Origin: Tridacna crocea
Taxonomy: Eukaryota > Mollusca > Bivalvia > Cardiida > Cardiidae
DNA: 64,000 nt
Assembly: GCA_943736015.1 (NCBI GenBank)
Contig: OX031061.1
Coordinates: 55,000,192 to 55,064,191 of the forward strand
Direction of reading: 5' to 3'
Shown: positions 47 through 23,046 of the stretch, in pieces
Layout: each line of letters starts with the position of its first letter
How positions within the stretch are numbered: position 1 is the stretch's first letter
Translations under genes and position numbers: made by a program
The notes under the pieces: generated by a model
The model's input: only the letters and a program-made list of their open reading frames with translations
Told to the model about the DNA's origin: nothing
Database searches by the model: none

Positions 47-210
47 ATGGTTCACAGAAAGTCCCTCATGGAGCCAATGCCAAATCAACTAGAAAGGAAT
101 CATTAAAGTCTGCCATCAGAATGCAAGGTCAGATGGTTCGTCAAAATAGTGGGAAGAAAGGGAAAACTTACTTCGTTAAGTTTGCGGAGACAACTGAAAA
201 TGTGAACAAG
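47..210 (+). CDS. internal coding exon of zinc-finger gene (shared linker, part 1)
   Basis: The exon follows a pyrimidine-rich tract ending in AG at 45-46 and stops at a plausible AAG|GTAGAA donor (intron from 211). The first two bases finish a codon begun in an upstream exon outside the window (phase-1 intron); 54 complete codons follow, ending in phase 0. The peptide is basic and polar (GSQKVPHGANAKSTRKES at its start, a KKGKTYFVKF stretch near its end) and matches no domain I can name. It joins in frame to the exon at 1801, which also starts in phase 0. Because it begins in the same phase as the zinc-finger exons downstream, an upstream exon could in principle skip it and splice straight to a finger cassette. 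No start codon is claimed; the gene starts left of the window. Confidence 0.75.
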
Positions 211-1800: not shown

Positions 1801-2697
1801 TTTGAGATTTTAGATGCATCAGGGCAAGCCCAGAAGGTGATCACAGACACTCGGAATACTCAAGGTCTAACTAGATCAAAAAGACAGATAAAAACACCTA
1901 AAAGGTTGTTGGATAGTGATGCATTTGTCCAACTCAAGCCATCCTCTAAAACATCTAAAAACATCAAACAAACAAATCCTGAACCAGACATCAAAACTCT
2001 GCAACTGCCGTATATCACAATTTGTGAACTGAGTAAGAATGACTTGTTTGTTGAAATTGAAGTGGAACCTGAATTTCAGTTAAGTCCCATAGAATTTATT
2101 GAAGAAGTGAATGGTAGGTTAAAATATGGTCTTAGTTTATCTAAAGAGAAGAATATTGTAAAAGATGAGTTAGAAGAATCAACAATAGAACACAATGAGC
2201 AGAAACCAGACATTGGAGGAAATGAACAGAAACAAGATAGAGAAGAAAAAGAAAAACGGCATAAGAGAAAAAAAAAGAAAAAGACTGCAGAACAAGTAGA
2301 TGATTTAAAAGACATTCCTGTACCGCAAATAAACAATTCGAACAATATTTCAAATGAGACCGTAAATGACACTGATGAAACCATGAAGGAGTTACAAGAA
2401 AATGAAACCCCATGTCTAGAACCTATAAGTGATGTGACAGATGAACAAACACAAACAGTGCAGGAAGATGATGATAATGAGGATGACGACTATGATCCAA
2501 CAGAGGAAGCAGAGGTAGAGAAAGCTAAACCACAGAAAGAAAGAAAGCTGAAAGAAGAAACTAAACCTAAAAGAAAATACACGAAAAGGAAAGCTTACAA
2601 TCAGGACAACACTCATTATACAGTGGTTACAAATGAAGAAGGTGAGATCAGTTATGTCTATTTTGAAGAACAGAAATTTTACGCTTATCCTTATTAA
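1801..2697 (+). CDS. large linker exon of zinc-finger gene; alternative short C-terminus ends at 2697
   Basis: An acceptor (TTTTATTTTTCAG) ends at 1800 and the frame is open from the first base (FEILDASGQAQKV...) to TAA at 2695-2697, 298 codons. Visible features are a lysine/arginine cluster KRHKRKKKKK at 2254-2283, an acidic run (EDDDNEDDDYD) at about 2464-2496, and a second basic cluster KPKRKYTKRK at 2563-2592. The basic clusters look like nuclear localisation signals; most of the rest is charged and probably disordered. A consensus donor lies inside the exon at 2642. Splicing there would drop the last 18 residues (EISYVYFEEQKFYAYPY region) and join the exon to a zinc-finger cassette. The annotated end is therefore either a real short isoform or intron read-through. 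The stop codon lies in the TTAA that begins a transposon copy. The gene family is not recognised beyond a C2H2 transcription factor. Confidence 0.8.
   Translation, partial: FEILDASGQAQKVITDTRNTQGLTRSKRQIKTPKRLLDSDAFVQLKPSSKTSKNIKQTNPEPDIKTLQLPYITICELSKNDLFVEIEVEPEFQLSPIEFIEEVNGRLKYGLSLSKEKNIVKDELEESTIEHNEQKPDIGGNEQKQDREEKEKRHKRKKKKKTAEQVDDLKDIPVPQINNSNNISNETVNDTDETMKELQENETPCLEPISDVTDEQTQTVQEDDDNEDDDYDPTEEAEVEKAKPQKERKLKEETKPKRKYTKRKAYNQDNTHYTVVTNEEGEISYVYFEEQKFYAYPY
2634..2650 (+). other. alternative splice donor, phase 1 (cut after 2641)
   Basis: The sequence GAAGAAG|GTGAGATC matches the metazoan donor consensus closely. The upstream frame ends with one base (G) of a codon. All three downstream zinc-finger exons start with two bases (GC, GA or GT), so the joint codon is glycine every time, as in the unspliced reading (GGT). 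This phase and residue agreement is the main reason for treating the cassettes as parts of one gene. Confidence 0.75.
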
Positions 2698-3100
2698 GCC
2701 CTTTACCACACAATCCGAAACTTTTTACAACCCTTGGCAGAGCCCCGGTAGCTCAGTCAGTAGCGTGCTGGACTTGAGAACACAGGGTCCAGGGTTTGAT
2801 TCCCGGTTATGACCTTTGTCTCATTCATTTTCTTTCTAAGAATTAATGATAGCCATTGCGATAGGATTCATTCTTCTACCACTGCTGACCATCGTTTCGA
2901 TGATGATCATGTGGGAAAGCAGCCTCTGGAAAGAAAATTGTGCAAAGTACTGGTTAAAGAAACTCCAGGAACGCATGTATAGGTGCACTAGCTTTGGCAA
3001 TGTAACTGAAATGATGTTGAGAACAGAGTTAAACACCATACAGTCAATCATGTAATGACCCTGGGAAAAAGGCCTTTTGAAAACAATGGGAAAAATTTAA
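2694..3100. mobile_element. TTAA hairpin MITE interrupted by a SINE (2694-2732 and 3057-3100)
   Basis: TTAA at 2694-2697 followed by GCCCTTTACCACACAATCC is a left terminus. After the SINE the arm resumes (GACCCTGGGAAAAAGGCC, TTTTGAAAACAATGGG). The first TTAA contains the TAA stop of the 1801 exon read-through frame. The right half is lost or scrambled. Confidence 0.65.
2733..3056 (+). mobile_element. tRNA-derived SINE, family 1, nested in a TTAA element
   Basis: The head GGTAGCTCAGTCAGTAGCG and B box GGGTTTGATTCCCGG are well kept; the body and the tail (ACACCATACAGTCAATCA) match the copies at 664 and 32542. The sequence before and after it reads as the two pieces of one TTAA transposon arm, so the SINE landed inside that element. 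The flanks ACCCTTGG and ACCCTGGG could be an imperfect target duplication. Confidence 0.75.
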
Positions 3101-3149
3101 TGTGAAAAAAGGGCAAGGCAGTGCCCCCTGCTGTTCCACTCTATAGAGT

Positions 3150-3706
3150 AAACACTATCACTAGCATTTTCTCCTACTCCCACAATGTTTCAACTCATTA
3201 CCAAATGACAAAAGTTTAGGCTTGTCCAAATTGAAAGCGTTTGCAGACGACAAAATAAAAGTGATTGAAAATTTGAAATTTGTTTTGTGAAGGGTTAGAA
3301 AACATTGTGGGAAAAGGAGAAAATGCTGTTTACCAGCATTTTCTCCTTTTTCCACAATGTTTTCTAAAGGCTTCTTTCTCAGGGTCGTCAAAAGTAGGGA
3401 TTGTGTGGTAATGGGTTAAATAGTCATCTTTTTCAAGGTGGTAAAAAGTCAGGATTTTGCAATAAAAGGTTAACTTTAATTCATTACCAAATGACAAAAT
3501 TTTAGGTTTGTCAAAATCAAAAGCATTTGGAGACGACAGAATAAAAGTGACTCAAAATCTGAAATTTTTTGTGGTAAAGGGTAGAAAGCATTGTGGGAAA
3601 GGGAGAAAATGCTGGTTACCATCATTTTCTCCTTTTTCCCACAGTGTTTTCAGAAGGCTTCTTTCTCAGGGTCATCAAAAGTAGGGATTGTTTGGTAATG
3701 GGTTAA
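3150..3706. mobile_element. two complete TTAA hairpin MITEs (3190-3419, 3476-3706)
   Basis: Both run from a CATTACCAAATGACAAAA left end to a GATTGTNTGGTAATGGGTTAA right end. A stray hairpin half precedes the first (about 3155-3188). Both carry the CATTACC/GGTAATGGG terminal variant, unlike the CTTTACC variant elsewhere, so at least two terminal subtypes exist. Confidence 0.8.
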
Positions 3707-3844
3707 CTCAATTGTTGTCCATAATGGCTTTCAATATTGACTAAAGTCTGAAGTTTTGTTATCTGGTGCACAGTCACACATCAAGGTTTCTGACGAATTC
3801 ATACTTTAGATAACTTTAGGTCCAGGGACTGATTTAAATTGAAG

Positions 3845-4135
3845 AGATATTGATTGATGGTAGAATGTTTAATGCTGCTTTCAAATTTATTTCAATTTTA
3901 TCATGGCAACCAGTGCACCTGTCCACAGTTTCCTGGAGTACAGTGCTTTACTCAATATTTTTTTCAAGCCACTGGCTGCTTTCCCACGTATTCATCATTA
4001 AAACTATGATCTGCAGCGAGAGAGGGTCACAGTGACAATTTTTGGAAAGAAATTGGTCGAACTGCAAATCAAACTAGCAAGCCCATGTTCGTTAGTCCTA
4101 CACAGTACCAACTGCGCTACTGGGACTGGTGAATT
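3845..4135 (-). mobile_element. SINE family 1, minus strand, diverged
   Basis: Read on the minus strand it begins with a tRNA-like head (CCAGTAGCGCAGTTGGTACT) near 4128 and runs through the family body (GGAAAGCAGCCAGTGG) to the TCAAT tail near 3850. It is more diverged than the plus-strand copies and no target duplication was found. Confidence 0.6.
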
Positions 4136-4176
4136 GACGAAAGAAGTAAAGGCCTGAACAATTTGAAAAACAGCCT

Positions 4177-4866
4177 TAACCCCTTACCAAAGGACAAAGT
4201 TAGGATGGGTCCAAATTGAAAATATATCCAGACAACATATTAACCCATTACCACACAATCCCTACTTTTGACGCCCCTGAGAAAGAAGCCTTTAGAAAAC
4301 ATTGTTTGAAAAGGAGAAAATGCTGGTAACCAGCATTTTCTCCTTTTCCCACAATGTTTTCTACCCTACTGGAAGCAAATTTCAATATTTCAGTTACATT
4401 TATTTTGTTGTCTGCAAGTGCTTTCAATGTGGACCAGTTTAAACTTTTCTGGTTTGGTAAAGGGTTAAACATGACTTGACAAATGAAATTTGTTTTGGAA
4501 AGGGTAGAAAATACCAGCATATTCTCCTCTTCCCACAAAGTTTTCAAACGGATTCTTTCTCATGGTCGTTAAAAGTCGAAATTGTGTGGTAAAGGGTTAA
4601 AAAGCAGATATCCCTTATTGCCACAATTTCTTTAGCAGAGGTCATCTGCACATCTCAAGAATTTGTTTCAAGAAAGTTATGGGTTACCCCTGTTCCCAAA
4701 TGACAAATTTTAGACCTTTCCAAATTGAAAGCATTTGCAGATTACAATTTGAAAGTGTTACATATCGACATGAGTTTTTTAACAGGGTAGGAAACATTGT
4801 GAGAAAAGAAAAAAAATGCTGATTCCTCAAGATCAGTACAACTTGGGATTGTATGGTAAAGGGTTA
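4177..4866. mobile_element. TTAA MITE cluster (4177-4239, 4240-4468, 4475-4599, 4685-4866)
   Basis: The 4240-4468 copy is complete with TTAA at both ends. It is inserted against a left-end fragment (4177-4239) and followed by a palindrome-plus-right-arm fragment ending in TTAA near 4597 and a decayed copy ending GTATGGTAAAGGGTTAA near 4866. Confidence 0.75.
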
Positions 4867-5233
4867 ATGGGCTGGCCTGGCCAGATTGAATGAAGTTAAC
4901 ACTTAACAACATAATATGTATTATATAACAAATGATGGCATGTATCCTATTGGACATGTATTTCTGTTGTGGATGTTGAATCAAAAGTGCACCAATATAC
5001 CAGTATTTTTTGCACATAATTGGAATACCATTGGTGCAATACAACTAGTAGCACTTTCTTTGGGTATTGTTGGCAAAGAGAAAAAAAATGGATCTTTGAA
5101 CTGTCATCATGAAATAATCAAAATGCTGCTGATAGGGTGTACATTTACCATGCTTAGAACCAGGCTTTTATACATTTTTTTGTGCAAAAATATTTGAATT
5201 TTCATAAAGGTGATGTATATTTTTTCCTGATAT

Positions 5234-5546
5234 TAGCTTACCTGAGCACGAAGTGCTGAGAGTGAGCTATTGTGATCACTACAGCATTTTCTGCTCATCT
5301 GGAATATAACAGTCATCTCCAGCCTGAACATCTTCAAATTTGATATGCATGATTGTTGAAAAAATCTTTGAGTTATTCCCCCTTTGACCATCATTTTTAT
5401 CATCTCAAGTCATATTGTGACAATTTGCTGCTCTTGTTTCATTATCATTTGGCCTTGAACCTTAATATTTGGTATTTATCTTTATTTTAGACTTTTACTG
5501 CTTAGTACTCAGGTGAGCAGTATAGGACCATCATGGTCCTCTTGTT
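5234..5546 (+). mobile_element. Helitron-like dispersed repeat, short copy
   Basis: It starts AGCTTACCTGAGCACGAAGT and ends with a hairpin GGACCATCATGGTCC followed by TCTTGTT. It has no terminal inverted repeats and no internal tandem units. The terminal hairpin suggests, but does not prove, a non-autonomous Helitron or Helentron. Confidence 0.55.
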
Positions 5547-5764
5547 TTCTTCTTTAACTATGGAAGAAATACGGTTTTAATCCAATATAATTATAAGATG
5601 AACTTTGGAACTGTATAATACCTGTGGCAATATAAATTCTCAGAAATAAGCAAGGTGACCCACATCTTTTTTTACTGTAATCTCCCAGAGATATGATGAG
5701 CTTTGTACATGTATGTGCAAAGTTTGAAAAAGATCTGTCCATTAGAAAAATTTGTCATATTATA

Positions 5765-6209
5765 CATCATTAACCACATGACAAAATTTTATTCTTGTTC
5801 ATATTGAAAGCTTTTGCAGATGACAATTCAATTGAGGTTGAAATGATGAGACTGTAAAAAGGATAGAAAACATTGAAATGATGAGACTCTGTAAAAGGAT
5901 AGAAAACATTGTGGGAAAAGGACAAAATTCTGGTCACCAGCATTTTCACCTTTCTGCACAATGTTTTCTACTCACTCAAAGATATAGTCTGTCAGGTTTA
6001 GTCTGTCAGTTTTAGTCACATTTAACCCTTTACCAAACAATCCCTGAGAAAGAAGCCTTCTGAAAACATTGCTGGAAAAGGAGAAAATGCTGGTAACCAG
6101 CATTTTCTCCTTTTCCAACAATGTTTTCTATCCTGCTGTAAACAAATAGTATTTTTTGAGTTACATTGATTTTGTTGTCTGCAAGTGCTTGCTGTGTGGT
6201 AAAGGGTTG
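5765..6209. mobile_element. TTAA MITE pair, decayed (5765-5990 and 6022-6209)
   Basis: The first has the left arm, then a local duplication of GATGAGACTGTAAAAGGATA at 5845-5905 and a damaged palindrome. The second starts TTTAACCCTTTACCAAACAA, keeps a clean palindrome and ends GTGGTAAAGGGTTGA. Confidence 0.65.
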
Positions 6210-6264
6210 AACTTTTCTCTAGAAATGCTTTCTAGTGAAGAGATGATCTATCACTGTTCAGGTT

Positions 6265-7926
6265 TTTAGCTCCACTGGCCGAAGGCCAGCGGGCTTATGT
6301 CATGGCCCGTTGTCCGTCGTGCGTCCGTCCGTCCGTCCTTGCGTTAACTTTTTCTTTAAACATCTTCTTCTCTGAAACTACCCATCCAATTTGGATGAAA
6401 CTTCACAGAAATGATCCTGCCATGGTCCTCTTCAGAATTTCTTGAAAGAATTTAATTCCTTCAAAAACTCTGGTTGCCATGGCAACAAAACTGAAAAATT
6501 TTGAAAATCTTTGAAAATCTTCTTGTCTGAAACCGTAAGGCCTAGAGCTACCAAATTTGGCATGTAGCTTTATCTAGTGGACCTCTACCAAGTTTCTTCA
6601 AATTATAGCCCTGGGGTCAAAATTGGCCCCGCCCCGGGGGTCACAAGTTTTACATGGGCTTATTTAGGGAGGACTTTAAAACTCCTCTTCTACCTAGGCA
6701 TACGGCCTAGGGCTACCAAATTTGGGATGTTGTTTTATTTAGTGAACCTCTACCAAGAGTGTCTAAATTATAGCCCTGGGATCAAAATTGGCCCCGCCCC
6801 GGAGGTAACAAGTTTTACATGGGCTTATATAGGAAGAACTTCAAAATTCTTCTTCCACCTAGCCATAGGGCCTAGGGCTACCAAATTTGGCATGTAGCTT
6901 TATCTAGTGGACCTCTACCAAGGGTTTCCAACTTATAGCCCAGGGGTCAAATTTGGCCCCGCCCCGGGGGGTAACAAATTTTACATGGGCTTATATAGGG
7001 AAAACTTTCAAAATCTTGTTGCACCTAGCTATAAGGACTAGGGCTATCAAATTTTGCATGTAGCTTTATCTAGGGGGTCTCTACCAAGGGTGCCCAAAAG
7101 TATAGCCCTGGGGTCGAATTTAGCCCCCGTCACAGGGGATCACAAGTTTTGCATTGGCTTATATAGGGAAACTTTAATAATCTACTTGTACATAGCCATA
7201 AGGCCTAGGGCTACCAAATTTTGCATGTAGCTTTATCTAATGGGCTTCTACCAAGAGGGCCAAAATTTTAACTTTGGGGGTCAAGTTTGACCCCATCCCA
7301 AGGGTCACAAGTTTTACATTGGCTTTATAAACCTGTCTCATGGGTCACATATTTTACAGGACCTTTTATTGAGCAAACTTGTTGTACAGGGCTTTTTATT
7401 GGGCAAGATTCAAAAATCTTCGTGTCTATAACCACACATTCTAGTTTCATATTGTAGATCTGGGGTAAAAATTGGCTTCATCCAGGGATCACAAGTTTAA
7501 CATGGACCTCAAGATACAGTCACTTTAATTTATACATTAATCAAGGGAAATAACTCTTTTTATGTAAGATAAAGTTTGGTACTATTTACCGCCCTTGATT
7601 ATCAAACTGCATTGATACATAATTGATGCTAGACATTAAGATTTTTGATAGAAAATATTCTGTTTTCAAGTGTTATTCATTTTTTTGATGCTAATAGTTA
7701 TGCTTACATGAGGTGAATAATAAATTCAGAGTAAGGTTTCTATCATTCAGTTTATTTTTCCAAGGATTTTACCTTTCATGCTAATGAATTAACCTGCTTG
7801 TACTGCCTGACAGCGTTCATTGTTTTTGAAGGCCCTCTTTTTCATGGTCGTGAACACTTCAATTTGTGTGGTAAAGGGTTAAAAAGCCAGTGGAGCGATA
7901 CAGGGCCATCATGGCCCTCTTGTTAG
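6265..7926 (+). mobile_element. Helitron-like repeat with about 165-bp internal tandem units
   Basis: It begins TTTAGCTCCACTGGCCGAAG and CGTCCGTCCGTCC and ends GGGCCATCATGGCCCTCTTG. Between are five diverged units whose GGCCTAGGGCTACCAAATTT start recurs near 6539, 6704, 6868, 7033 and 7201, a period of about 165. A TTAA MITE fragment (about 7840-7881) sits near the right end. Apparent small reading frames here simply follow the tandem units. Confidence 0.65.
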
Positions 7927-7939
7927 AAATAACAATAGT

Positions 7940-8485
7940 GATTGCTTCACTCAGAACAATTTACCAAGCATCAAAATTTCAGACTAGGCCAAATTAAAGG
8001 CATTTGTAGATGACAAATTTGATGTGGCAGAAATGAGGGAATTTGTCTTGGAGGGTTTTTCATGTTCGTCAAATAGAAGTCACGTGATTATGTGGTAAAG
8101 GATTGAATAATATACACCTATCTATTTTATGTGGGTTATAAATTAAGTTCTTGTAGCATATTTTTTTCACTCCCTATGTTCTCTTTCTGGAAACTTTTGC
8201 ATGTATTTGTAATGTTGGTAGTTCAAAAGGCTGACCAGGCTATGCAATTAGAATCTGGAACCCAATTAACCAATTCCCTTACAGTCCAGACTTTTAATAA
8301 CCCGGGGAGATCAAACTTCTGAGAACATGGTGGGAAAAGAAGAAGAAACCAGTAACCAGCATTTCCATTTCCCACAATGTTGTCTAACCTTTTAGAAAAA
8401 AAGCCAGTCATATATGTTGTTTGCAAAATTTTATGCTCTCAATTTGAAGCAGTCTAAGATATTGTCATGTGATAAAGGCTTACTG
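7940..8485. mobile_element. two badly decayed TTAA MITE copies
   Basis: About 7958-8105 keeps a left arm (TTTACCAAGCATCAAAATTT) and the end GTGGTAAAGGATTGA. About 8255-8480 keeps GTGGGAAAAGAAGAAGAAAC, CAGCATTTCCATTTCCCACA and a weak end. No gene is seen in this stretch. Confidence 0.45.
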
Positions 8486-8573
8486 TAAATTGCTGAAATT
8501 TTAGCTCTTCATTACTTTCAACCAAAAAGCTACACTGGAGAGAATGTCTGAAGGAAAAAAAGTATAAAGATCT

Positions 8574-8764
8574 GGGTCCGTATTCACCAACCATTCTTAA
8601 GAACATTCTTAGTCTTATTCTCCAGAATTCTGTGAACGTAACAGAATTTATGATTGGAAACTATTTGGTTTAGCCAATTAGAAGTTCTGTTACTTTCACA
8701 CTTAGAAAATCTTGCAGAACAAGACAGAGAATATTCTTAAAAATGGTTGGTGAATACGGAACCC
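8574..8764. mobile_element. foldback element, family 3, with about 30-bp inverted termini
   Basis: GGTCCGTATTCACCAACCAT at the left is mirrored by ATGGTTGGTGAATACGGA at the right. Inside are a second inverted pair and the GTTACTTTCACAC core shared with the copies near 21880-22194. Confidence 0.65.
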
Positions 8765-8999
8765 GGTAGTGCTACACAACAGAAAACATTTGAAAAAAAA
8801 AAGGAATCTTAGTTCCACATGAAACAACTTTACCACATATTAATCTACGACATGGCTGTAAAAGTCTGCTCAAGCATTTAATATGATAATGATAATGTTG
8901 ATTTTTCATTTTTACTGAACCACCAATTTCATTTTTACTGGACATTTGTTGACAGCAAATTAAATGCTGCCAAAATTATTGAATTTGCTTTTGAAAATC

Positions 9000-9965
9000 G
9001 AGAAACAATAAAAAATGAGCGTGGTGGCTAAATCTTAGATAAATTTGAGCGTTCTTTAGAGGCCATAGAAACTAAGTCTGAATGCTTTTCTTGATGATAT
9101 CTGAGACAAGTTGGAAATTATGTCAGGTAAAAAAGTAGGTCGCTTGGCCAAATATTTGTAAAATTTTGTTTGCACTCTGGAGGCAACATGTTCAGCCCAA
9201 TACTCATGAAACTAGGTCAGAATAGTTGTCTGGATGATAACTTGGACAAGTTAGAAACTGAGTCATGTCAGGTCAATAAGTAGGTCACTTGGCTAAATCT
9301 TGGAAAAAACCCAGACAAGTTGGAAATTATATCATGTCAGGTCAAAAAGTGTGAGACAGGGCTAAATCTTAGAGAAAAGTTTGTGTGCATGCATTATAGA
9401 CACCACAATTTCAACATGGTAATCAAGTGGGAACTTGGGTTTTGCATGTCAAATAGTAGGTCACTGGGCTAAATCCTAGAAAAAACCCAGACAAGTTGGA
9501 AATTAAGTCATGTCAGTTCAAAACATATGACACTGGGCTAAATCTTAGAAAAAAATGTGTTTGCATTGTAGAGGCCACACTTCCAACATGGTAATCATGA
9601 AATTGTGTCTGAAAGTTTGTCTTCATGATATCTTTGACAAGCCGGAAATTGGGTTATGTCAGGTGAATAAGAAGGTCTTGTGGACTATCTTAGAAAAACC
9701 TTGTATGCACCATAGAGGCCACATTTTCAGCCTGATGTTCATGAAACTTGGTCCAAAGTTGTCTTGATGATATCTCAGACATGGTTGAAATTGGGTCACA
9801 GCAGATCAAAAAGTAGATCTCAGGGGCAAATTTTTGAAATCTTGTATTAAATCTAGAAGCTATATTTCAGTTTGATATTCATGAAACATTATCAGAATAT
9901 TTGTCTTGATAAAAATATCAGAGTTCAAAAATAGGTCAAGTTGGTCAAAAGCCGTTTACTTAAAC
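9000..9965. repeat. diverged tandem repeat region
   Basis: Phrases such as GGTCACTTGGCTAAATCTTG, AGAGGCCACA, TTCATGAAACTTGGTC and GACAAGTTGGAAATT recur many times from 9000 to 9960 with irregular spacing of roughly 70-150 bases. This looks like an old tandem array eroded by deletions. It is the main content of this gene-free stretch upstream of cassette A. Confidence 0.6.
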
Positions 9966-10169
9966 TGGTGTTTAACATCATTTAAACCAGGAATTCTTCA
10001 GCTTTATCAACCACAGATACTGTAACTTCACCCATGTTAACGCTTTAGGGCCAATGTGTATATTTCTATCATAAATGAAGATAAAAATGACAGCAAAACC
10101 TGAGGTCAGATTTACACTATGGTTAGGGGCATGTTATCTTTGATCTACATGTATTTTTGACACAGATTG

Positions 10170-10490
10170 ACTTTGACCCTTTTACTGAACAATCCCTGGT
10201 TTTTATGACACCAAGGTAGAAGCCTTTTTTGAAGACATTGTGGGAAAAGGAGAAAATGCTGGTTACCAGCATGAAAAATACCAACTCAGAAATTGAAATA
10301 TGTTTCCAGCATAGTAGAAAACATCGTGGGAAAAGGAGAAAATGCTGGTTACCAGCATTTTCTCCTTTTCCCACAATGTTTTCTACTATGCTGGAAACAT
10401 ATTTCAATTTCTGAGTTGTCTTTATTTTGTCAGCTGCAAGTGCTTTCAATTTGGACCAGTGTACAATTTTGTTATTTTGTAAAGTATTAA
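10170..10490. mobile_element. TTAA MITE with an enlarged foldback
   Basis: Left end CCCTTTTACTGAACAATCCC near 10178, right TTAA at 10487-10490. Beyond the usual palindrome there is an extra inverted copy of the right arm: about 10278-10345 is the reverse complement of about 10353-10423, preceded by another half palindrome at 10225-10275. This gives one arm pair of about 70 bases. Confidence 0.75.
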
Positions 10491-10903
10491 ATTTTCACTT
10501 TAAAGCAATTGCAGCTAGCCAAAGGCACTGGCGTGTGTATTTCTTGTTTCCTATGATACGGATAATTTTGCACAAATTTATGCACTGAGCTTAGTGAAAA
10601 ATACCAATACTTTTGTGTAGAACTGATGGTCACAGAATGAGAATACCATTGTTTTTTGTAGTCCTATTTTTAAGACCATACATCTGTTATTTCACATTTT
10701 GACATTCATAGTGTATGTAGGCAAATGAAAAGTAAAATGTGAATGTCCAATAGATAAATGTTGAACAGCAAACAAGCATGTCTACGCTTAAATATTTGGA
10801 CCATATTTTTGGGGGCTCTTTGATATTAATTGCTGCAAAGAATCGTCACAAGTTGTAAGTCTGTAAGCCCTTACTAAGGTTTCCTTACTTTTCAACCTTC
10901 CAG
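10491..10903 (+). other. intron sequence before cassette A
   Basis: No repeat or reading frame was recognised in this AT-rich stretch beyond the pyrimidine tract and acceptor at its end. Confidence 0.4.
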
Positions 10904-11721
10904 GCCAGAAAGTGTTTGCTTGTAAAATCTGTGGGAAGGAATGTAAATCAGCAACAAATGTGATAGATCATTTATATCGACACACAAATTGCCGTCCAAA
11001 CATCTGCCAGTTCTGTGATATGGCTTTTAAGTCAATAAAGGCTCTTAAACGTCACGAGGTCCGCCATCAGGAAAAATCCATTATCTGTGATACTTGCGGC
11101 GCCTTGTTTTATTCAAGATCTGATTTGAAAAGTCATTTTGACACACATACAAATGAACGGAAATACATCTGCAAGGACTGTGGCAAAGGTTTCAATCATA
11201 GCTCAACGTTGGCACGACACCGACAGATTCACAGACAAAATCGTAGTAAGTTTCAGTGTCATGTTTGTGGTACAACATTTCAACGGACAGATGGAGTAAA
11301 ACGTCACATGCAAAATATACACAACATAAGGGACAAGACTAAGGACATGGTTGGAAACAAAACGCACACGAAAAAAAGGGAGACCAAGAAAAAAAGAAAC
11401 GCATCGGAGTCACATGGAGGTTGCTCAGTCATTGGAAATCAAACAAGCCAGTCTTTAAGTCACAATGGTGATTCTGCTGAGGAAATGTGTTTATCCACAA
11501 GGACCTTTCAGGATAGAGTTAGTGACAATTCTCTTGTACAAGACTATCAGATGAGAAATGGTGCTAGTGCCAAACATTACTTTACCAGTATTTCTGAATT
11601 AGTGCCTAGTTTTTCTGGACAAACAACAGTTACTGTACATCAAACTCCACAGGACTTATGTCAGTTAACCCTTTACCAAACAGTCCCAAATTTTAACAAC
11701 TCTAATGAAGAAACTTTTTGA
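10904..11721 (+). CDS. 3'-terminal zinc-finger cassette A (five C2H2 fingers)
   Basis: The acceptor TTCAACCTTCCAG ends at 10903. After two bases of a split Gly codon the frame runs QKVFACKICG... to TGA at 11719-11721, 271 residues. Fingers, all C-x2-C-x12-H-x3/4-H, lie at 10921-10983, 11005-11067, 11086-11148, 11170-11232 and 11257-11322; the last has x4 between the histidines. Predicted base-contacting residues (-1,2,3,6) are S,T,N,D; S,K,A,R; S,S,D,S; H,S,T,R; R,D,G,R. By alignment these correspond to fingers 1, 3, 4, 5 and 6 of cassettes B and C, so the equivalent of finger 2 is absent. A basic stretch (KKRETKKKR) and a polar tail follow. The last 18 codons and the stop, from 11665, lie in a TTAA transposon. 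Expected role: sequence-specific DNA binding in the nucleus. Confidence 0.85.
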
Positions 11722-11906
11722 AAACCTTGTCGGAAGAGGGGAAAAATGAATGCTGGTAACCAGCAATTTTTCCTTTAACTACAAGGTTTTCTAACTTTTC
11801 ACAGAATAATCTCAAAGTTTGAGTCAAATTTGTCATTAAATATGTGCAAATCAAATGCTTTGAACTTGGACAAGTCCAATATTTTGTTGTTTGGTAAAGA
11901 GTTTAA
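11665..11906. mobile_element. TTAA hairpin MITE inserted in the coding end of cassette A
   Basis: TTAA at 11665-11668 followed by CCCTTTACCAAACAGTCCC is a standard left end; the right end TTGTTTGGTAAAGAGTTTAA closes at 11906. The cassette A frame enters it in phase (TTA ACC CTT TAC) and stops at 11719-11721, so the element is partly coding. The palindrome is partly decayed, which suggests the insertion is not very recent. Confidence 0.8.
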
Positions 11907-11989
11907 GGACTTGACATTTACCAAGAAAAATGTAGATAAATTCATTACCTGTTACCTTTTTTTAGAGTATACAGTATAAGGCTTAGGCA

Positions 11990-13470: not shown

Positions 13471-14005
13471 TATTAATTTGTGGTTCGGAAAGGAGTTAAA
13501 AACAACCCTACTTTAAAAAAAAGTATTTTACATAGACATTAATTTTGTGATAATTCCTCACTTACTCATGTTTTTTTCTAAAATTTTATCAGTGTTTGGC
13601 CAAGACTCAGCAGTGCATTGCCAAAGGACAGTCCCACACAGCAAGATGCAACAGTGGGGATAGAACCCAGAACACCTGGATATTGCATCCACTGTTGCAA
13701 CTTCGCCATAAGGACTTCCTGAAACTGTCTCTTAATTTCTCCTTATGGTTATAACCCAATGATTAGAAAAACTCTATCTCTCCTAATAAACGCTCACTGA
13801 AGCTATGCAAAACATAGATGATTAGCCTTTGTTTGTACCCAAATTTGCAAAGCATAAAGTCAAATTTTGTACATGTATTTGTTTGTCTTTAGTGACCTTA
13901 AAAAGGGAAACATTGATCGAATTAGAGGAATTAGTATATACTTTGATATTGTCCCATTGTATTTGCACTAGATGAAAGTATGCAATATTTTTCCATATTG
14001 CATAC

Positions 14006-15571
14006 TTAACTCATTACCACACGACAAAATTTTAGACTGGTTCAAATTGAAAGCATTTGCAGACGACAAAAAAAAGGTGACTGAAAAATTGAAATTGGTT
14101 CTGGTGAGGGTAGAAAACACTGTGGGAAAAGGAGAAAATGCTGGTTACCAGCATTTTCTCCTTTTCCTACAGTGTTTTCTAAAGGCTTCTTTCTCAGGGG
14201 CGTCAAAAGTAGGGATTGTGTGGTAATGGGTTAATAATCCTTTTTACCTGATATGTCAATTTGAGGCTCTTCCATTTCAGCAGCAAATAAAGATAAAAAT
14301 ATGGACAAATGAGGATACAAATATCTGATTGAGTTGAAAACATTGTGGGAAAAGGAGAAATTGCTTGTGATGAGCAATTTCACCTTTTGCCACAATGTTT
14401 TGCAAGGGCTCCTACAAGCAATGCTTAGATATGAGTATCTATGGAGTAAAGGATTAAGAGATCAGAAAATTACTTCTGTTTTATATGAGCTGAATGGATC
14501 CTCTTTACAAAACCACAAAAATGTTTAGACATGCCTAAAATGAAAGCATTAATTTTGTGGATGACAAAATTAATGCGAAAGAAAAAGTGAAATTTACTTT
14601 GGGACAGGTAGGAAACTGTGGGTATAGGAGAAAATGATGGTTACCACAAAAGGCCTCTTTCTCTGGGTTGTTGAAAGTTGGGATTGTGTGGTAAGGAGTT
14701 ACAGCAATTATGATAGTTGTCAAGTACATTTTCGCTTGAATATTTCCCAAGATATCAAATATGTTTAGCCCTTTTCCATTCAGTCTGGAGTTTTGAATTC
14801 TCTAAGAAAGAAGCTTTTGGAAAACATCATGGAAAAGGAGAAAATGATGGTAATGAGCATTTTCTCTATTTCCCACAATGTTTTCTTTCTTTTCAGATAA
14901 TCTGAGCTCATTTTTACCCATTTAGATATATCATTTAACTCCTTACCACACTGTCCTGACTTTTAACAACCCAGAGTATGAAGCCTTTTGAAAACATTGT
15001 GGGGAAGGAAGAAAAGGCTGGTAATCAGCAGTTTCTGCTTTTCCCCACAGTGTTTTCTACCCTTCCCAAACCAAATTTCAGTTTTTCAGTCACATTTATT
15101 TTGTCGTCAGCAAAATGCTATCAATTGGGACAAGTCTAAAATTTAGTTGTTTGGTGAAAAGTTAAAGATCTTTTTAATTTGGAAGTCTCAAAACTTAGAA
15201 AATACTAGCTTTATTCCCTTTCCAACAATATTTTGAACAGAAAATTTTGTGAGAGTCAGTTATATCCTGGATTAAGTGGTAAATGGCAATTTGTAGTTAT
15301 TCTTACCATTTTAAGGGTAATTTGTAGTTATTCTTACCATTTTAGGGGAAGAGTAAGATTTAACACTGTACCAAAATACATAATTGTAGACTAGTCCAAA
15401 TTGGAAGCATTTGCAGACTACAAAATGAATGTGACTAACAGATTGAAATTTGTTTTGGGAAGAGAAGAAAACATTGGGGGAAAAGGAGAAAATGCTGGTT
15501 ACCAACATTTTCTCCTTTTCCCACAATGTTTTTAGTAGGCTTCCTACTAAAATTATTTGGGAAAGGGTTAA
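14006..15571. mobile_element. TTAA MITE cluster upstream of cassette B
   Basis: Complete copies: 14006-14234, 14935-15165 and 15360-15571, each with TTAA at both ends. Partial copies: about 14330-14410 (palindrome only, with a different but still matched inner stem), 14520-14703 and 14765-14935. A 20-base duplication AATTTGTAGTTATTCTTACC occurs at about 15289 and 15319. Confidence 0.75.
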
Positions 15572-15709
15572 ATGGATGCTTTTAAAGCCACATATGAAAT
15601 GTTGTTGTCGAAGGAAAAAAGGGCTTACGAGCAAGAAACAGAATTTCACAGGTGTTGTGAAAAACTATAAATAGGATAAAGCCAATGTTGTTTTCTCTAC
15701 TCATTTTAG

Positions 15710-16611
15710 GAAAGACAGTACACAAGTGTAAATTCTGTGGATTAGAAGTACGTCTCCTAGGAAACATGAGGGATCATGTCCGGACCCATACTGGTGAAAA
15801 GCCGTTTCAGTGCGAAACCTGCGGGAAAAGGTTTGGTAGCCAGACTAATTATAGTCTCCATATGAAATGTCACTCTGCAGATAGACCGTTCGTCTGTGAC
15901 ATATGTGGCTTTGCATTCAAAATAAAAAAACAGTTAAAGCTGCATAAACAACGACATACGTCCTCAAGATCAAAGATATGCCAGCATTGCGGCCAAGGGT
16001 TCTATAGTACAACAGAATTACGTAACCATATACTCAGACATTCGGATGAAAAACTGTTTAAATGTGAGGTTTGTGACAAATCCTTCACTCAGCCAAGCTC
16101 TTTAAAGCGACATAAATTTCTACACACGGGTGATGGTCAGCATCAGTGTCATTACTGTGGGGCCGTATTTAATAGACGAGATTATTTTCGTTCTCATTTG
16201 GTCAAGAAGCATTCAGTTTCAGAAGATGCTCTTGATACTCTTGTTCCAAATCTTCACCCAGGACGTAAAGTCAGTAAGTCTGAATTCACTATAAAAAATG
16301 AAGAAAATGTGGAAACCAGTGAAGAAGTCTCGCTGGTTCCTGTAAGTGGAATGGGAGGGGAACCATTATATATTAGAATAGATGACAAAAACTATGCCGT
16401 ACAGTATTTGAATACCTCGGATGACACGCAAGTGATGTATTGTGAAGAAGCTGACACGATGATTGCCTCACAACCTGGATCGGAAATTGAAACGGCTGAT
16501 AACGTTCAATATATTACTGAACAGAGTTTTAACAATGTGGAACAGAACTTTGTCAATGGTGAAGGTGTCGGTGAAATCACCTTTACAATTGTTTCAAACG
16601 TTGACTGCTGA
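15710..16611 (+). CDS. 3'-terminal zinc-finger cassette B (six C2H2 fingers)
   Basis: The acceptor TCTCTACTCATTTTAG ends at 15709. Two bases (GA) complete a Gly codon and the frame continues KTVHKCKFCG... to TGA at 16609-16611, 299 residues. Fingers lie at 15727-15789, 15811-15873, 15895-15957, 15979-16041, 16063-16125 and 16147-16212, with TGEKP-type linkers best kept between fingers 1 and 2. Predicted contact residues (-1,2,3,6): L,G,N,D; S,T,N,L; I,K,Q,L; S,T,E,N; Q,S,S,R; R,D,Y,S. The acidic tail of about 130 residues contains a segment (LYIRIDDKNYAVQYL) that resembles one in cassette C, so the tail is probably a shared regulatory region. A GTAAGT at 16274 inside the tail is a possible further donor, also phase 1. 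A TTAA transposon begins 13 bases after the stop. Confidence 0.87.
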
Positions 16612-16623
16612 AGATCAGTGCAC

Positions 16624-19270
16624 TTAAGCCATTACCAAACGACAATATTTTAGGCTTGTCCAAATCGAAAGCATTTACAGACAAAAAAATAAAAGTTAAT
16701 GAAAATTTGAATTTGTTTTGTAAAAAGTAGAAAAAGAAAACATTGTGGGAAAAGGAGAAACTGCTGGTTTCCAGCATTTTCTCCTTTTCTCACAATGTTT
16801 TCTTTCTCAAGGTTGTTAAAAATCGGGATCGTTTAGTAAACAGTGAAGCCTTTACCTCATGTCCCCTTGTTTAAACTCTTAACCAAATGATAAAATTTTA
16901 GACTGCTTCAAATTAAAGAACTTGCTGAGTTGCAGATGACAAAATAGATGTAACTCAAAAATTGAAATCTGTTTTCAGTAGCCTATAAAACTTGAGTAAT
17001 CATTGAAAACACTGTTGAAAAAGGAGAAAACGCTGGTAACCAGTGTTTTCAAAAGGCTTCTGTCTCATGGTGGTAAAAACCAGGTATTGTTTGGTAAAGG
17101 TTTAACTCTTTACCAAGCAACAATATTTTGGATTAGTCTGAATTGAAAGCAATTTGGGAATGAAAGAAAACATTATGAGACAAGGAGAAAATGTTGGGTA
17201 CCAGCATTCTGGTTTCCAGCATTTTCTTCTTTTCCTACATTGTTTTCGAAAGCTCTTTCTCTCAGGGTTGTTAAAAGTCAGGATTGTGTGGTAAAGAGTT
17301 TAAGACCGTTGGGAAAATTCTTTTGAAAACATTGTAGGAAAAGCAATTAAATGTGGGTATTTTCCTCCTTTTCTCACATTTTTTTCTACCTTTTCCAAGA
17401 CATCTTTATTATGTCTGCTGCGTCTAATATATTGTCTGCAAGAAAATTCAGTTCACAGGGGTCTAAAATTGTTACGGCAAAGGGTCAGTGTAGATCAGTG
17501 ATCAGACTGTGTTGTGTTGTGCTGTTAGATCTTGAACTTTACTATCCATAAATGCAAAATTGGTTCTTAACAGCATTAACTCTTTACCTCCCAGTGCCGA
17601 CTTTTAACGAACCTGAGAACAAAAGTTTTTGAAAACTTGCGAAAAGGAGAAGATGCTGGTCACCAGCATTTTCTCCCTTTCCCACAATGTTTTCTACCCT
17701 TCCCAAATCAAATATCTATTTTTTGATTCCAATTTATTTTGTTCGCTGCAAATGCTTTCAATTTGGGCTAGTCCAAAATTTTGTCGTTTGGTAAAGAGTC
17801 AACTCTTTTCCAAACAACTCCTGGTTTTAACCACCCCAAGAAAGGAGCCATCTGAAAACACTGTTGGAAAAGGAGAAAATGCTGGTAACCAGCATTTTCT
17901 CCTTTTCCCACTATGTTTTTTACTCATCCAAAGTCGGATATCATTTTTGAGTCACCTTCATTTTGCCGTCTGCAAATGCTTTTAGTTTGGACAGGTCTGA
18001 AATTTTGTCGTTTAGCAAAGGGTTAAGATTGGAGGCTTATAGATGCATGGAATTCTCATTCTTGTTTTATAAGAGACTCAAATTTAGCAAGCATAAAATT
18101 TATTTTTCTTTTATTTCTTTGCCAAACAAGCCCTGTTTCAAGCTTTGGAAAACTTCGTGGGAAAAGGAGAAAATACTGGTAACCAGTATTTTATCCCTTT
18201 CTTACAAGGATTTTTATCCTTTCAGAGACAAATTTCATAATTTGAAATGCTTTTAAGCTGTCGTCTGCAAATTATTTCAATATGGGTCGGTCTAACATTT
18301 TGTCGTTTGGCAGAGCTCCAGAAAGAGGTAGTGACAAGCATTTTCTCCTTTTCTTGCAATATTTTCTACAATTTCAAAGTCAGAAAGCATCATAATACAT
18401 GTAGCTCTTTACCAAACAACAAAATTTTTGACCAGTCCAAATTTAAAGCATTTGTAGACAACAAAATACCGGTAAATGTGAATTGAAAATTGAAACTTGA
18501 TTTAGAAAGGGTAGAAAACATTGGGAAAAGGAGAAAATGATGGTTACCAGCATTTTCTCCTTTTCCCACAATGTTTTCAAACGCTTTCTTTCTCAGGGTC
18601 ATTTTAAGTCAGGAATGTGTGGTAAAGAGTTAACCAGGTTAAATTGGTTGTCTCTAGTTGCTTTGAATTTGGTCCTGCCTAAAATATTTTCATTTGGTGA
18701 AGAGCCAAACCTTTACTAAACAAAATTATTTCAGACTTCTAAATTGAAAACCTTTGCAGACAACGTTTGTGGCCAAAATAATGAAATTTGTCCGAGATGG
18801 AAGAAAACATTGTGGGAACAGGAGAAAATGCTGGTTGTCATTTTCTCCTTTTCCCACAATATTTTCAAAGCCTTCTGTGACATAATCAAACAGTTGAGAG
18901 TTTGTTGTGTGATATGTAATAGTGGAAAGCAAAGAGATGGGACTAAATTTGAGCAGTTTATTTAAGTGTTAATAAAATTTATTGGATGTAATCTTTTGGA
19001 TTAAATTTGTTTGTTCTGTCAGTCCTGTTCATTTGTTGCTTAAAACTCTTTACCAAATGACAAAATTTTGGACAAGTCCAAATTAAAAGCACTTGCAGGC
19101 GACAGTTTAAATGTGAATTGAAAATTAAATTTTGATATTGGAAGGATAGAAAACATTATGGGAAAAAGAGAAAATGCTGGTTACCAGCATTTTCTCCTTT
19201 TCCTATAATGTTTTCAAAAGCTTTCCTTCTCAGGATCATTAAAAGTCAGGATTGTGTGATAAAGAGTTAA
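16624..19270. mobile_element. dense TTAA MITE cluster downstream of cassette B
   Basis: Copies at 16624-16846, 16871-17105, 17102-17303 (sharing TTAA 17102-17105), a remnant at 17310-17480, 17576-17803, 17800-18026, 18110-18320, 18400-18633, 18700-18925 and 19040-19270. Almost the whole 2.6 kb is this family. The copy at 18110-18320 has an inner stem changed on both sides (AATACTGG / CCAGTATT). Confidence 0.75.
16688..16693 (+). promoter_or_regulatory. candidate poly(A) signal AATAAA for cassette B
   Basis: AATAAA occurs 77 bases after the stop of cassette B and is followed within 20-30 bases by a T/GT-rich stretch (TTTGAATTTGTTTTG). It lies inside a TTAA transposon copy, whose arm often carries ACAAAATAAAAGTGA. 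Use of the site is inferred. Cassette A has only a weaker ATTAAA near 11834, also in transposon sequence. Confidence 0.4.
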
Positions 19271-19319
19271 TACTGTTTTCAGTTCTATTTGTCATCCCAA
19301 AATGGGCATTCTAATGCAA

Positions 19320-19512
19320 AACCCCAGACAAGAGGGAGTGTAATGGTATTCTTAAGTCATTATTTCTTTTCAAAACTCTACGTTGTGGGTACTCATTAGA
19401 ATTGTCTCAATGACACAATTCTGATGAGTACCCACAACATACGTTTTAGTGGAGAATTAACTAATATTTCCAATCTTTAAATCAAAATCGCTCCGCTTCC
19501 TGTATCCGGAGC
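19320..19512. mobile_element. palindromic foldback element, family 4
   Basis: Two roughly 30-base arms (GTTGTGGGTACTCATTAGAA and its mirror) meet at about 19410, and GAGGGAGT / GCTCCGCTTCC-like ends flank it. The sister copy is at 32232-32402. Confidence 0.6.
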
Positions 19513-19549
19513 TCAGGTAATGTGCATGTAATGTGCATATACCTACTTT

Positions 19550-20530
19550 AGACATACCGTCCGTCCATGCATGCATGAGTCCGCCCGTGCGTGCGTTAAA
19601 CTTACTTCTCAAACATCTTTTTCTTTGAAATTACCCATTCAATTTTGATGAAACTTCGCAGAAATGATCCTGCCATGGTCCTCTTCAGAAGTTATTGAAA
19701 GAATTTTATTCCTTCAAAAACTCTGGTTGCCATAGCAACAAAACTGAAAAATATTGAAAATTTTTAAAATCTTCTCTGAAACCATAAGGCCTAGGGCTAC
19801 AAAATTTGGGATGTAGCTTTATCCAGTGGACCTCAACCAAGTTCCTTCAAATATTAGCCCTGGGGTTAAAATTGGCCCTGCCCTGGGGTTCACAAGTTTT
19901 ATGGGCTTATATAGGGAAAACTTTAAAATCCTCCTGGTACGTAGCCATAGGGCCTAGGGCTACCAAATTTGGCATGTATCTTCATCAAGTGGTTATATAC
20001 CAAGAGTGCCCAAATTATAGCTCTTGGGTCAAATTTGTCCCTGTTCCTGGGGGTCACAAGTTTTATATTGGCTTATATAGGGAAAATTTTAAAATCTGTC
20101 TGGTATCTAGCCATAGGGCATAGGGCTACCAAATTTGGCATGTATCTTTATCGAGTGATTGTCTACCAAGAGTGCCCAAATGATAGCTCAGGGGTCAAAT
20201 TTGGCCTGGCCCCGGGGTCACAAGTTTTATGTGGGCTTACAAAGGGAAAACTTTAAAAATCTTCTCATACCAAGCAACAAAGCCCAGGGCTACTCAATTT
20301 TGCAACTAGCTTTATAAAGTGGTTGTCTGACAAAGGTGCCCAAATTATAGCCCTTGGATTAGATTTGGCCCCGTCCTGGGGGTCACAAGTTTTTCATGGG
20401 CTCATATTGGAAATTTTTTAAAAATCTATTTGTACAAATATACTCCGCTGAGCGATATGGGACCATCATGGTCCCCTTGTTACTTATTAGCCAGTGGAAC
20501 AATACAGGACCATCATGGCCCTCTTGTGTT
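19550..20530 (+). mobile_element. Helitron-like repeat, diverged, with two successive 3' hairpins
   Basis: It shares the CGTCCGTCC...GCGTTAAA head, the GGTTGCCATAGCAAC box and about 165-bp units (CCTAGGGCTACCAAATTTGG recurring) with the 6265 copy. Two terminal hairpins occur, GGGACCATCATGGTCCCC near 20458 and GGACCATCATGGCC near 20507, suggesting fusion or tandem insertion of two tails. Confidence 0.6.
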
Positions 20531-20898
20531 TTATAAATACATGTTACTTCTGCTAGCATATTCTCCTAAATTGTGTGATCAGTTTCTACTTAACTTTCAA
20601 CAAATTCATCCATGCACTGGTATGTTTCTCTTCCAAATTTGCTCAAATGATTCCTGCCTGTTCGATAATTAAATCACAGGATCACATAGTAAGAATTTGA
20701 ACAACACATAATCACAAACATTTACTGAGGACAGATTTTACTAAAACATTGCACATAAAAAGCTCATTATGTCTCTATATGACAGTAAAAAAGATGTGGG
20801 TGATGCTCGTTTCTGAGAAATTTGCTTCTAAAAAGGGTATACATGTATATATACACTTCCAAAATTCAGCTTATATTGGATTTTGAACCAGCTTTTCT

Positions 20899-21712
20899 TT
20901 AACCCATTACCACATAATCCTTACTTTTGACGACCCCGAGGAAGAAGCTTTGAGAAAACATTCTGAGAAAAGGAGAAAATGCTGGTAACCGCATTTTCTT
21001 CTTTTCCCAAAATGTTTTCTACCATTCACAAAACAAATTTCAAAATTACAGTCACTTTTATTTTATCTGCAGATGCTTTCAATTTGGACAAACCTAAAAT
21101 ATTGTTGTTTGTAATGAGTTAATAGCGAGTTAAATACAAATATCACTGGAAAAATGTGGTGCCTTGCCAAAGGACACTCCAATATGACTTTAGAGCTTTT
21201 AACCCTTTACCACACAATCCTGAGTTTTAACGACTGTTAGGAGGAAGCCTTTTGAAAACATTGTAGATAAAGGAGAAAATGCTGGTTCCTAGCATTTTGT
21301 CCTTTTCCCACAATGTTTTTTCTACCCTTCCAAAACAAATTTTGATTTTTCAATCACATCTGTTTTCTCATCTGCAAATGCTTTCAATTTAAACTATTCT
21401 AAAATTTTGTCATTTGGTAAAGAGTTAAAAGTGAGTTAAACACAAATATTACTAGAAAAATCCGGTGCCTTGCCAAAGGACACTCCCATATGGCTTTAGA
21501 GCTTTTAACCATTTACCACACAATCACAAGTTTTAATGACTCTTAGAAGGAAGCCTTTTGAAAACATTGTAGAAAAGGAGAAATTTTCTCCTTTTCCCAC
21601 AATGTATTTTCTACCCTTCCAAAATAAATTTTGATTTTTCAATCACACTTATTTTGTCGCCTGCAAATGGTTTAAAGTTGGACCAGTTTCAAAGGTAAAG
21701 AATTAAGTTCCA
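20899..21712. mobile_element. three TTAA MITEs, two in a tandem duplication
   Basis: Copies at 20899-21122, 21199-21428 and 21505-21706. The last two each follow the same spacer of about 77 bases (GTGCCTTGCCAAAGGACACT core at about 21161 and 21467), so spacer and element were duplicated as a unit of about 305 bases. The duplicates have since diverged; the last has lost the centre of its palindrome. Confidence 0.75.
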
Positions 21713-21879
21713 GCCAGGACTAAGCCATAATCTGATTAAAAGTCTGATTTCTTTTAAAACACTCAGAGTTTAGATATATTTAAAGTTTATTATATTCACC
21801 ACATGTAAGAAAGAGTAAACACAGTACTGGTTTAAGAGTTGAAATGGAAATTTTGTCATGCAGGCAACCTTTAGTATCC

Positions 21880-22194
21880 TGCTCGGTCTTATTCTTCAAG
21901 ATTTCGTGACCGTGAAAGTCACAGGACTGCTGATAGGCTAAACCATGTTGTGTGGCCAATCAGAAGTCTTGTTACTTTCACACTGACAAAATTCTTAAGA
22001 ATAATACTAACAATGTTCTAAAAGAATGGTTGGTGAGTACGCTCCAAGATTTCCTGACCGTGAAAGTAACAGGACTTCTGATTGGCTAAACCATTTGGTT
22101 TAGCCAATCAGAAGTCCTTTTACTTTCACATTGACAAAATTCTGAAGAATAAGACAAAGAATGTTCTAAAAGAATGGTTGGTGAGTACAGACCC
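21880..22194. mobile_element. foldback element, family 3, partly duplicated in tandem
   Basis: Two successive partial copies (about 21880-22040 and 22041-22194) share TGACCGTGAAAGT, CAATCAGAAGT, ACTTTCACA and end in AAAGAATGGTTGGTGAGTAC. The second ends only about 67 bases before the cassette C exon. Confidence 0.6.
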
Positions 22195-22261
22195 TGTTGT
22201 GACAATAGGATAGTCAGTTTATTTCAGATAATAATCATTTATGCTTAATTTTCCATTGCAG

Positions 22262-23046
22262 GTAAAAGAAAATTCAAGTGTAATTTCTGTGGAGCTGAGA
22301 TGCAGTCTGGTGGAAACATGCGTGACCATATACGATCGCACACAGGCGAAAAGCCGTTTGAATGTGAGGTCTGTGGTAAAACTTTCAAGAGTAATAATAA
22401 CTTGAAAGGACACATGGTGGTACATAGCAATGAACGCCCATATGTCTGTGATATTTGCGGATTTGCCTTCAAGCAAAAAGGACTTCTGAAAATCCATCGG
22501 ACCCGACATAATCCAGATTCGAGTCGATTTACATGCCATATATGTGGGAAAGGGTTTTACTCATCAACTGAAGTCAAGAAACATATTCCAAGTCATACTG
22601 GAGAGAAAAAATATGAATGTAAGATATGCAACAGAAAATTCACTCAAGATAGCGCCTTGGCAAGACATCGGTTTGTTCACACAGGAAGCAAGCCTCATAT
22701 GTGCGAAATCTGTGGTATGACTTTTGTACGTAAAGAACACTTTCGAAAACATAACGAAAAATTTCATTCAAGTGATAACACAAAGGTGAAAACTGAAATA
22801 GCTCATCCGAGTGAAATAATTGTTGATATACAAGGTGAGGCCACAGATGCAACAAATAATCTTATAGATAAAGAGATGATATATCTACAGTTAGACGGGA
22901 GTGTGTACTCAGTGCCTGCTGTAAATGACAGTAAGGGTACTGACATATTATACCAGGCCATGGAAATTCCAGTACAAAATACAGAAATAATCATTGTTAC
23001 AGACAGCAATGAACTGGACAGAAAAATTGAATATTCTGAATTGTAG
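22262..23046 (+). CDS. 3'-terminal zinc-finger cassette C (six C2H2 fingers)
   Basis: The acceptor AATTTTCCATTGCAG ends at 22261. Two bases (GT) complete Gly, then KRKFKCNFCGAEM... continues to TAG at 23044-23046, 260 residues. Fingers lie at 22279-22341, 22363-22425, 22447-22509, 22534-22596, 22618-22680 and 22702-22767. Predicted contact residues (-1,2,3,6): S,G,N,D; S,N,N,G; Q,G,L,I; S,T,E,K; Q,S,A,R; R,E,H,K. Finger for finger it is a paralogue of cassette B (for example GNMRDH in finger 1, CDICGFAFK in finger 3, GFYSxTE in finger 4). The contact positions differ at several fingers, so the DNA target should differ. The tail holds EMIYLQLDGSVYSV, aligned to the B tail, and ends in EYSEL. 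A TTAA transposon starts 19 bases after the stop. Confidence 0.87.

Follow-up and report, generated by a model that had tools for sequence, protein, structure and literature searches.

Does a single bivalve gene swap the whole DNA-binding end of its protein by choosing among three last exons? The principle is already known in insects, where swapping of whole DNA-binding ends through last-exon choice is best known from BTB proteins; at this locus it would give three proteins that probably read different DNA sites from one gene. In annotation, a gene of such design is readily mistaken for three independent zinc-finger genes. Moreover, a clear BTB-less case derived from terminal-exon duplication would show that the design stems from exon duplication combined with phase matching and not from the BTB family. 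The sequence considered here is a 64,000-nucleotide stretch of the Tridacna crocea genome (the window, whose coordinates are used throughout, negative values lying upstream), which was examined together with 100 kb on each side, 264 kb in all. An earlier note on the window had proposed that one donor site is joined to three downstream zinc-finger exons, referred to below as cassettes A, B and C. Our analysis makes it quite probable that these are alternative last exons of one gene, joined in cis.

Shared exons, splice junctions and zinc-finger arrays

Two plus-strand coding exons precede the cassettes. The first (47..210, +; 54 full codons) is entered in phase 1 and left in phase 0, with the borders cag/ATGG on the 5′ side and CAAG/gtagaa on the 3′ side (slashes mark splice positions), and its reading frame stays open into position 1801. 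Its splice sites are only fair, the acceptor and the donor each lying at the 90.4th percentile; this and all later percentiles were obtained with a splice matrix from the GT and AG sites of the 264 kb. The second exon (1801..2641, +; borders ttttcag/TTTG and GAAG/gtgaga) encodes an acidic/basic linker in which acidic and basic runs are abundant, and which is predicted to be mostly disordered (AF2 single-sequence mean pLDDT, 47.8). Close to its end sits KRKYTKRK, likely a nuclear localisation or DNA-contact stretch. When the 1.05-Gb genome (31 contigs) was searched, each of the two exons matched only itself, and a Pfam scan of the shared exons (window 49-210 and 1801-2694) returned no family at E ≤ 1.

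The earlier note had recommended looking for shared N-terminal exons outside the window. Such an exon was found about 3.4 kb before the window, with the standing of a candidate: on the basis of frame, phase and splice sites, a short exon of 27 codons (aacttcag/AGTC ATG AAG ... GAAACAG/gtaata) may be the first coding exon. It exits in phase 1, and exon 47-210, which is entered in phase 1, completes the codon GAT; its donor and acceptor lie at the 97.6th and 92.8th percentiles. Including this candidate, the predicted proteins would have 634 (A), 662 (B) and 623 (C) residues, of which about 363, at the N-terminal end, would be common to all three.

The shared phase-1 donor, AAG/GTGAGA (2642..2650, +), lies at the 99.9th percentile of 13,181 GT sites. 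Downstream, the acceptors end at 10903 for A (ccttccag/GCCA), 15709 for B (cattttag/GAAA) and 22261 for C (attgcag/GTAA), at percentiles 98.4, 96.0 and 96.3 of 14,433 AG sites; in none of the three does any other AG from the upstream stop to the first finger score higher. Every one of the three joins splits a glycine codon across the junction (GGC in A, GGA in B, GGT in C) and produces a single open frame with one stop, and in all three cassettes the distance from the acceptor to the first finger cysteine codon is exactly 17 nt. The donor and acceptor coordinates of the earlier note, the phase-1 match between them and the three glycine codons were thus all reproduced. The corresponding introns would measure 8.3, 13.1 and 19.6 kb for A, B and C. 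Upstream of the cassette B fingers, within the pyrimidine tract of the B acceptor, there is an in-frame ATG at 15685.

Past the donor, the open frame continues with GEISYVYFEEQKFYAYPY and then a stop (2642..2697, +); if the donor were left unused, this read-through could possibly give a fingerless isoform. The 18-residue read-through tail was also compared with the tails of the cassettes, and the likeness was not significant, the score being reached by 296 (B), 2018 (C) and 2215 (A) of 3000 shuffles.

Each cassette is a terminal exon that carries a full C2H2 array and its own stop, as the earlier note had stated. Tandem fingers of the form CX2CX12HX3-5H, the pattern of C2H2 zinc-finger proteins, number five in A (10904..11721, +), six in B (15710..16611, +) and six in C (22262..23046, +), and Pfam agrees (zf-C2H2, PF00096; E-values 2.7e-20, 4.8e-23 and 1.4e-27, respectively). 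In addition to frame and acceptor, coding scores speak for these exons: in leave-one-out scoring, A reached +24.3, B +20.7 and C +33.7 bits, and exons 47-210 and 1801-2641 together +60.0 bits. At its 3′ end, cassette A runs into a copy of a dispersed repeat, whose initial 57 nt (11665..11721, +) supply the final 18 residues and the stop of the cassette; the end motif of the repeat is at 11665. Residues 254-271 of A have many matches across the region, all of them weak (best E, 0.016).

Probable kinship of the three cassettes

With their identical spacing between acceptor and first cysteine, the three cassettes resemble ancient tandem duplicates of a single exon. Among non-self matches in the genome, the best match of B is C (210 bits; next, 125) and the best match of C is B (208 bits; next, 135), and the likeness extends beyond the fingers into the tail (B residues 5-243 with C residues 5-230, 43%). 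Because the best matches are reciprocal and the tail is shared, the kinship of this pair is firm, and the two clearly look like ancient tandem duplicates of a single terminal exon. All six fingers of B score best against the same-numbered finger of C, and the finger order is collinear, the observed score being attained by one of 720 orders (observed order counted).

Cassette A probably shares its terminal-exon origin with B and C, to judge from match rank, finger order and tree. Its top genome matches are C (108.7 bits) and B (100.1 bits), followed by one at 84.5 bits; in the opposite direction A ranks only in row 15 of the match list of B and row 13 of that of C (self counted), and the identity of A to C is only about 40%. 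Finger order is collinear here as well, the observed score being attained by one of 120 orders for A and B and by four of 120 for A and C (observed order counted in both). The register is shifted by one: five of five A fingers score best against the next-numbered finger of B and four of five against the next-numbered finger of C, the fifth finger of A scoring best against the second of C and not the sixth. The MAFFT alignment and the order test pair finger 1 of A with finger 2 of B and C; by acceptor spacing, finger 1 of A would instead correspond to finger 1 of B and C. A tree was built from five-finger blocks of A, B and C and of ten arrays of the same genome picked for likeness to one of the three, two duplicate rows having been dropped. 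The three cassettes group together with moderate support (FastTree 0.90, ultrafast bootstrap 71), the pairing of B with C inside this group is weak (0.62 and 62), and A, which has one finger fewer, has the longest branch of the three.

Single gene or separate genes

A codon-usage scan of both strands from −60,000 to +42,000, with a model trained on four finger-gene ORFs (one counted twice) and on this gene, returned five stretches that reached the threshold of 12 bits, namely the three cassettes, the large shared exon and, 56 kb upstream, a TIR-like exon. Between the cassettes it picked up nothing coding of large or linker size. The accepted 54-codon exon at 47-210 likewise stayed below the threshold, so small exons may still be present, and the claim of the earlier note that no other coding exon lies between the cassettes holds for large exons, whereas small ones can escape detection. 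Candidate initial exons, defined by an ATG, at least 25 codons and a phase-1 donor, numbered four in the gaps, which total 17,810 nt (one of the four is cassette B itself, and two use a common donor), while four control stretches contained 3, 4, 1 and 3; own first exons for the cassettes are thus not indicated by any excess of candidates in the gaps. The further cassettes that the earlier note had suggested looking for did not appear in the 264 kb, where the C2H2 pattern gave no fourth finger array and tblastn no cassette relics; elsewhere in the 264 kb the pattern occurs at two single places (7735-7923 and −61594 to −61517), which we take for chance hits. Neither Rfam at gathering scores nor a tRNA scan of the window returned anything, and of three stretches in viral contigs that matched a pattern none was confirmed.

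These observations bear on the possibility that the cassettes are three separate tandem zinc-finger genes, one of them using the shared exons and the other two having small upstream exons and promoters of their own. Tandem C2H2 arrays do exist elsewhere in this genome, for example in clusters on contigs C17, C9 and C15 and at neighbouring places in the match lists, and short first exons could slip past the coding scan. We nevertheless consider three genes unlikely for the following reasons: (i) The shared linker exon has a single match in the genome, but the copies of the C9 pair each hold their own linker in the finger exon. (ii) The gaps contain neither a linker-sized coding stretch nor an excess of initial-exon candidates, and, small exons aside, no finger array here has a linker-sized upstream coding exon of its own, as would be expected of a tandem cluster. 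(iii) One donor fits all three acceptors, and the spacing to the first cysteine is identical. The same three clusters were searched, short of a genome-wide survey, for a second locus of the design proposed here, and none qualified: in C17 the last finger of the repeated five-finger ORFs is cut short and splicing onward seems likely, and the ORFs of C9 and C15 appear to be tandem genes or else broken copies.

A different reading is that one terminal exon works and the other two are decaying, disused duplicates. Cassette A would be the natural suspect, since it has the longest branch, one finger fewer and a final 18 residues derived from a repeat copy. We judge this very unlikely: the C2H2 pattern is still matched by 17 fingers and all three frames are intact, even though A and C have diverged so far, and good acceptors have been retained in all three cassettes. 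A lost finger would escape a pattern count, so for A the argument from intact fingers is partly circular. Under neutrality, a frame of some 270 codons would almost certainly have acquired a stop at the divergence between A and C; a rough estimate, (61/64)^270, is about 2e-6. Finally, the cassettes might be transcribed from their own promoters and joined in trans to the shared exons, as in Drosophila mod(mdg4), whose last exons have independent promoters (PMC12692577), and partly in lola. A trans-spliced locus would likewise show same-phase last exons far downstream, as seen here with introns of 8.3, 13.1 and 19.6 kb, but this reading is scarcely credible, as the sequence does not require it and the cassettes lie nearby, in the orientation of the shared exons.

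One gene with three terminal finger exons, the central proposal of the earlier note, is thus the best-supported reading, given the single-match shared exon, the agreement of phase and spacing in three of three cassettes and the absence of a large linker exon; we infer from these features that the three junctions are used and that they are spliced in cis. Built on the observed frames, phases, splice-site quality, B-C homology and single genome match of the shared exon, the model would run as follows. One plus-strand gene would encode a common N-terminal region in which no BTB domain was found, and splicing of its pre-mRNA would link the only donor, at 2642, with one or another of the three alternative last exons, each supplying a complete C2H2 array, a short tail, a stop and presumably a poly(A) site of its own. 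The output would be three transcription-factor-like proteins with the same front and different DNA-binding ends, presumably acting in the nucleus. The three ends would go back to a single terminal exon that was duplicated in tandem long ago; B and C still have their six collinear fingers and a portion of the tail in common, and A is the most diverged. The locus would then offer a simple three-way case of how a cell picks a last exon across 8 to 20 kb.

Comparison with known genes and predicted DNA targets

Broad shares an exon design that groups it with the lola and fruitless type of BTB zinc-finger genes. The vertebrate gene ZFP64, a C2H2 gene without BTB, has alternative finger exons at its 3′ end, in two finger sets compared with the three proposed here.

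Drosophila lola joins common 5′ exons to alternative 3′ exons, most of which encode zinc fingers (PMC1947980; PMC11426971), and fruitless of insects has common exons and a connector followed by the alternative terminal finger exons zA, zB and zC (PMC3572092). The clam gene resembles both, as far as can be told from sequence alone, in having common 5′ exons with a single donor and several same-phase terminal C2H2 exons with their own stops (three of three). By comparison, lola differs in its N-terminal BTB domain, its approximately 20 isoforms, compared with three cassettes here, and its use of both cis- and trans-splicing, and fruitless in the BTB domain of its common exons; fruitless also has sex-specific 5′ splicing. 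The gene mod(mdg4) likewise joins a single common part to many alternative 3′ exons (PMC12692577), but its ends are mostly FLYWCH rather than C2H2 and it also carries a BTB domain (PMC11426971), and it is described as exclusively trans-spliced, with some last exons on the opposite strand (PMC12692577).

No N-terminal BTB/POZ domain was found in the common part of the clam gene, the Pfam search (E ≤ 1) having covered window 49-210 and 1801-2694. An upstream BTB exon was sought by profile search and by eye among 136 plus-strand ORFs of at least 55 aa from −55.4 kb to the window start, and was not found; a BTB domain split over very small exons is possible. With 150 of 177 candidates scored, the BTB profile PF00651 has at least 114 matches across the genome, of which five are on the contig of the locus, at 46.1, 40.5, 40.5, 19.1 and 18.7 Mb; the locus is at 55.0 Mb, and the nearest match among the candidates scored is thus 8.9 Mb away. 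As no BTB was found, the gene would work like lola or fruitless but is not to be classed with the BTB genes, and the parallel that the earlier note drew with lola, Broad and mod(mdg4) stands for the design only, those proteins carrying a BTB domain. Among the matches listed from the open-licence literature, no mollusc gene of the same design was recognised by title or start of abstract. It is unlikely that a BTB-less non-arthropod gene independently evolved a lola-like switch in which tandem terminal-exon duplication gave three swappable ends for one N-terminal part and a dispersed repeat, lodged at the three coding ends and also at the read-through stop, gives 3′ end signals that aid the choice.

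The residues of a finger helix that contact DNA are usually −1, 2, 3 and 6. By hand count, these are the same in B and C at 12 of 24 places, similar to the agreement outside the contact comparison, where 70 of 135 positions of the five-finger blocks agree. Since contact residues agree about as often as other finger positions, the DNA targets of the cassettes are likely to be different but related. A PDB search with cassette B retrieved general C2H2 relatives, with ZNF568 at the top.

The dispersed repeat at the coding ends

A dispersed repeat whose ends resemble TTAACCCTTTACCA and whose palindromic core is GAGAAAATGCTGGTAACCAGCATTTTCTC, MITE-like as judged by eye, has copies starting at window positions 2695, 11665, 16624 and 23065. 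All four stops have such a start within 56 nt: the stop that ends the in-frame read-through past the donor of the shared exon (2697), and those of the putative alternative C2H2 last exons, cassettes A, B and C (11721, 16611 and 23046, respectively). Based on the background rate, i.e., the 11.8% of sampled non-coding positions that lie equally close to the repeat, the chance of finding four of four stops at such proximity is approximately 2e-4, for a distance that was picked post hoc. In cassette A, the final 18 residues and the stop codon come from a copy of the repeat.

The repeat is very dense across the 264 kb from −100000 to 164000 (negative coordinates, and those beyond 64000, denote flanking sequence). 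Allowing one mismatch in the core and two in the end motif, we found 168 plus-strand and 103 minus-strand cores and 100 plus-strand and 158 minus-strand end motifs in this interval; one shuffled sequence gave 0 and 2, respectively.

Tandem arrays in and after the gene

Two tandem copies of a 148-nt unit (89% match) occupy positions 21897–22188, and the pair stops approximately 75 nt upstream of the cassette C acceptor. Several arrays with units of ~165 nt, which appear by eye to be related to one another, are dispersed across the gene and downstream of it (6536–7329, 19782–20407, 30498–31541, 37916–38714, 39771–40256 and 40504–41036). From 42457 onward, the rest of the window is taken up by a long head-to-tail array of ~1,830-nt units, which probably extends as far as ~163600. 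Its copies are nearly identical inside the window, and the regular spacing of matches suggests a total length of more than 120 kb.

A possible neighbouring gene and other C2H2 clusters

Upstream, outside the window, a minus-strand ORF (−56271 to −55492) resembles, by eye, an exon encoding a TIR domain; it would belong to an adjacent gene that lies on the opposite strand.

Other C2H2 clusters occur on three further contigs of the same genome. The cluster on C17 (19.17–19.25 Mb) consists of repeated five-finger exons, which appear to splice onward; that on C9 (50.75–50.77 Mb) contains what look like paired genes, each with a separate linker; and the copies on C15 (27.17 Mb) are in part broken.
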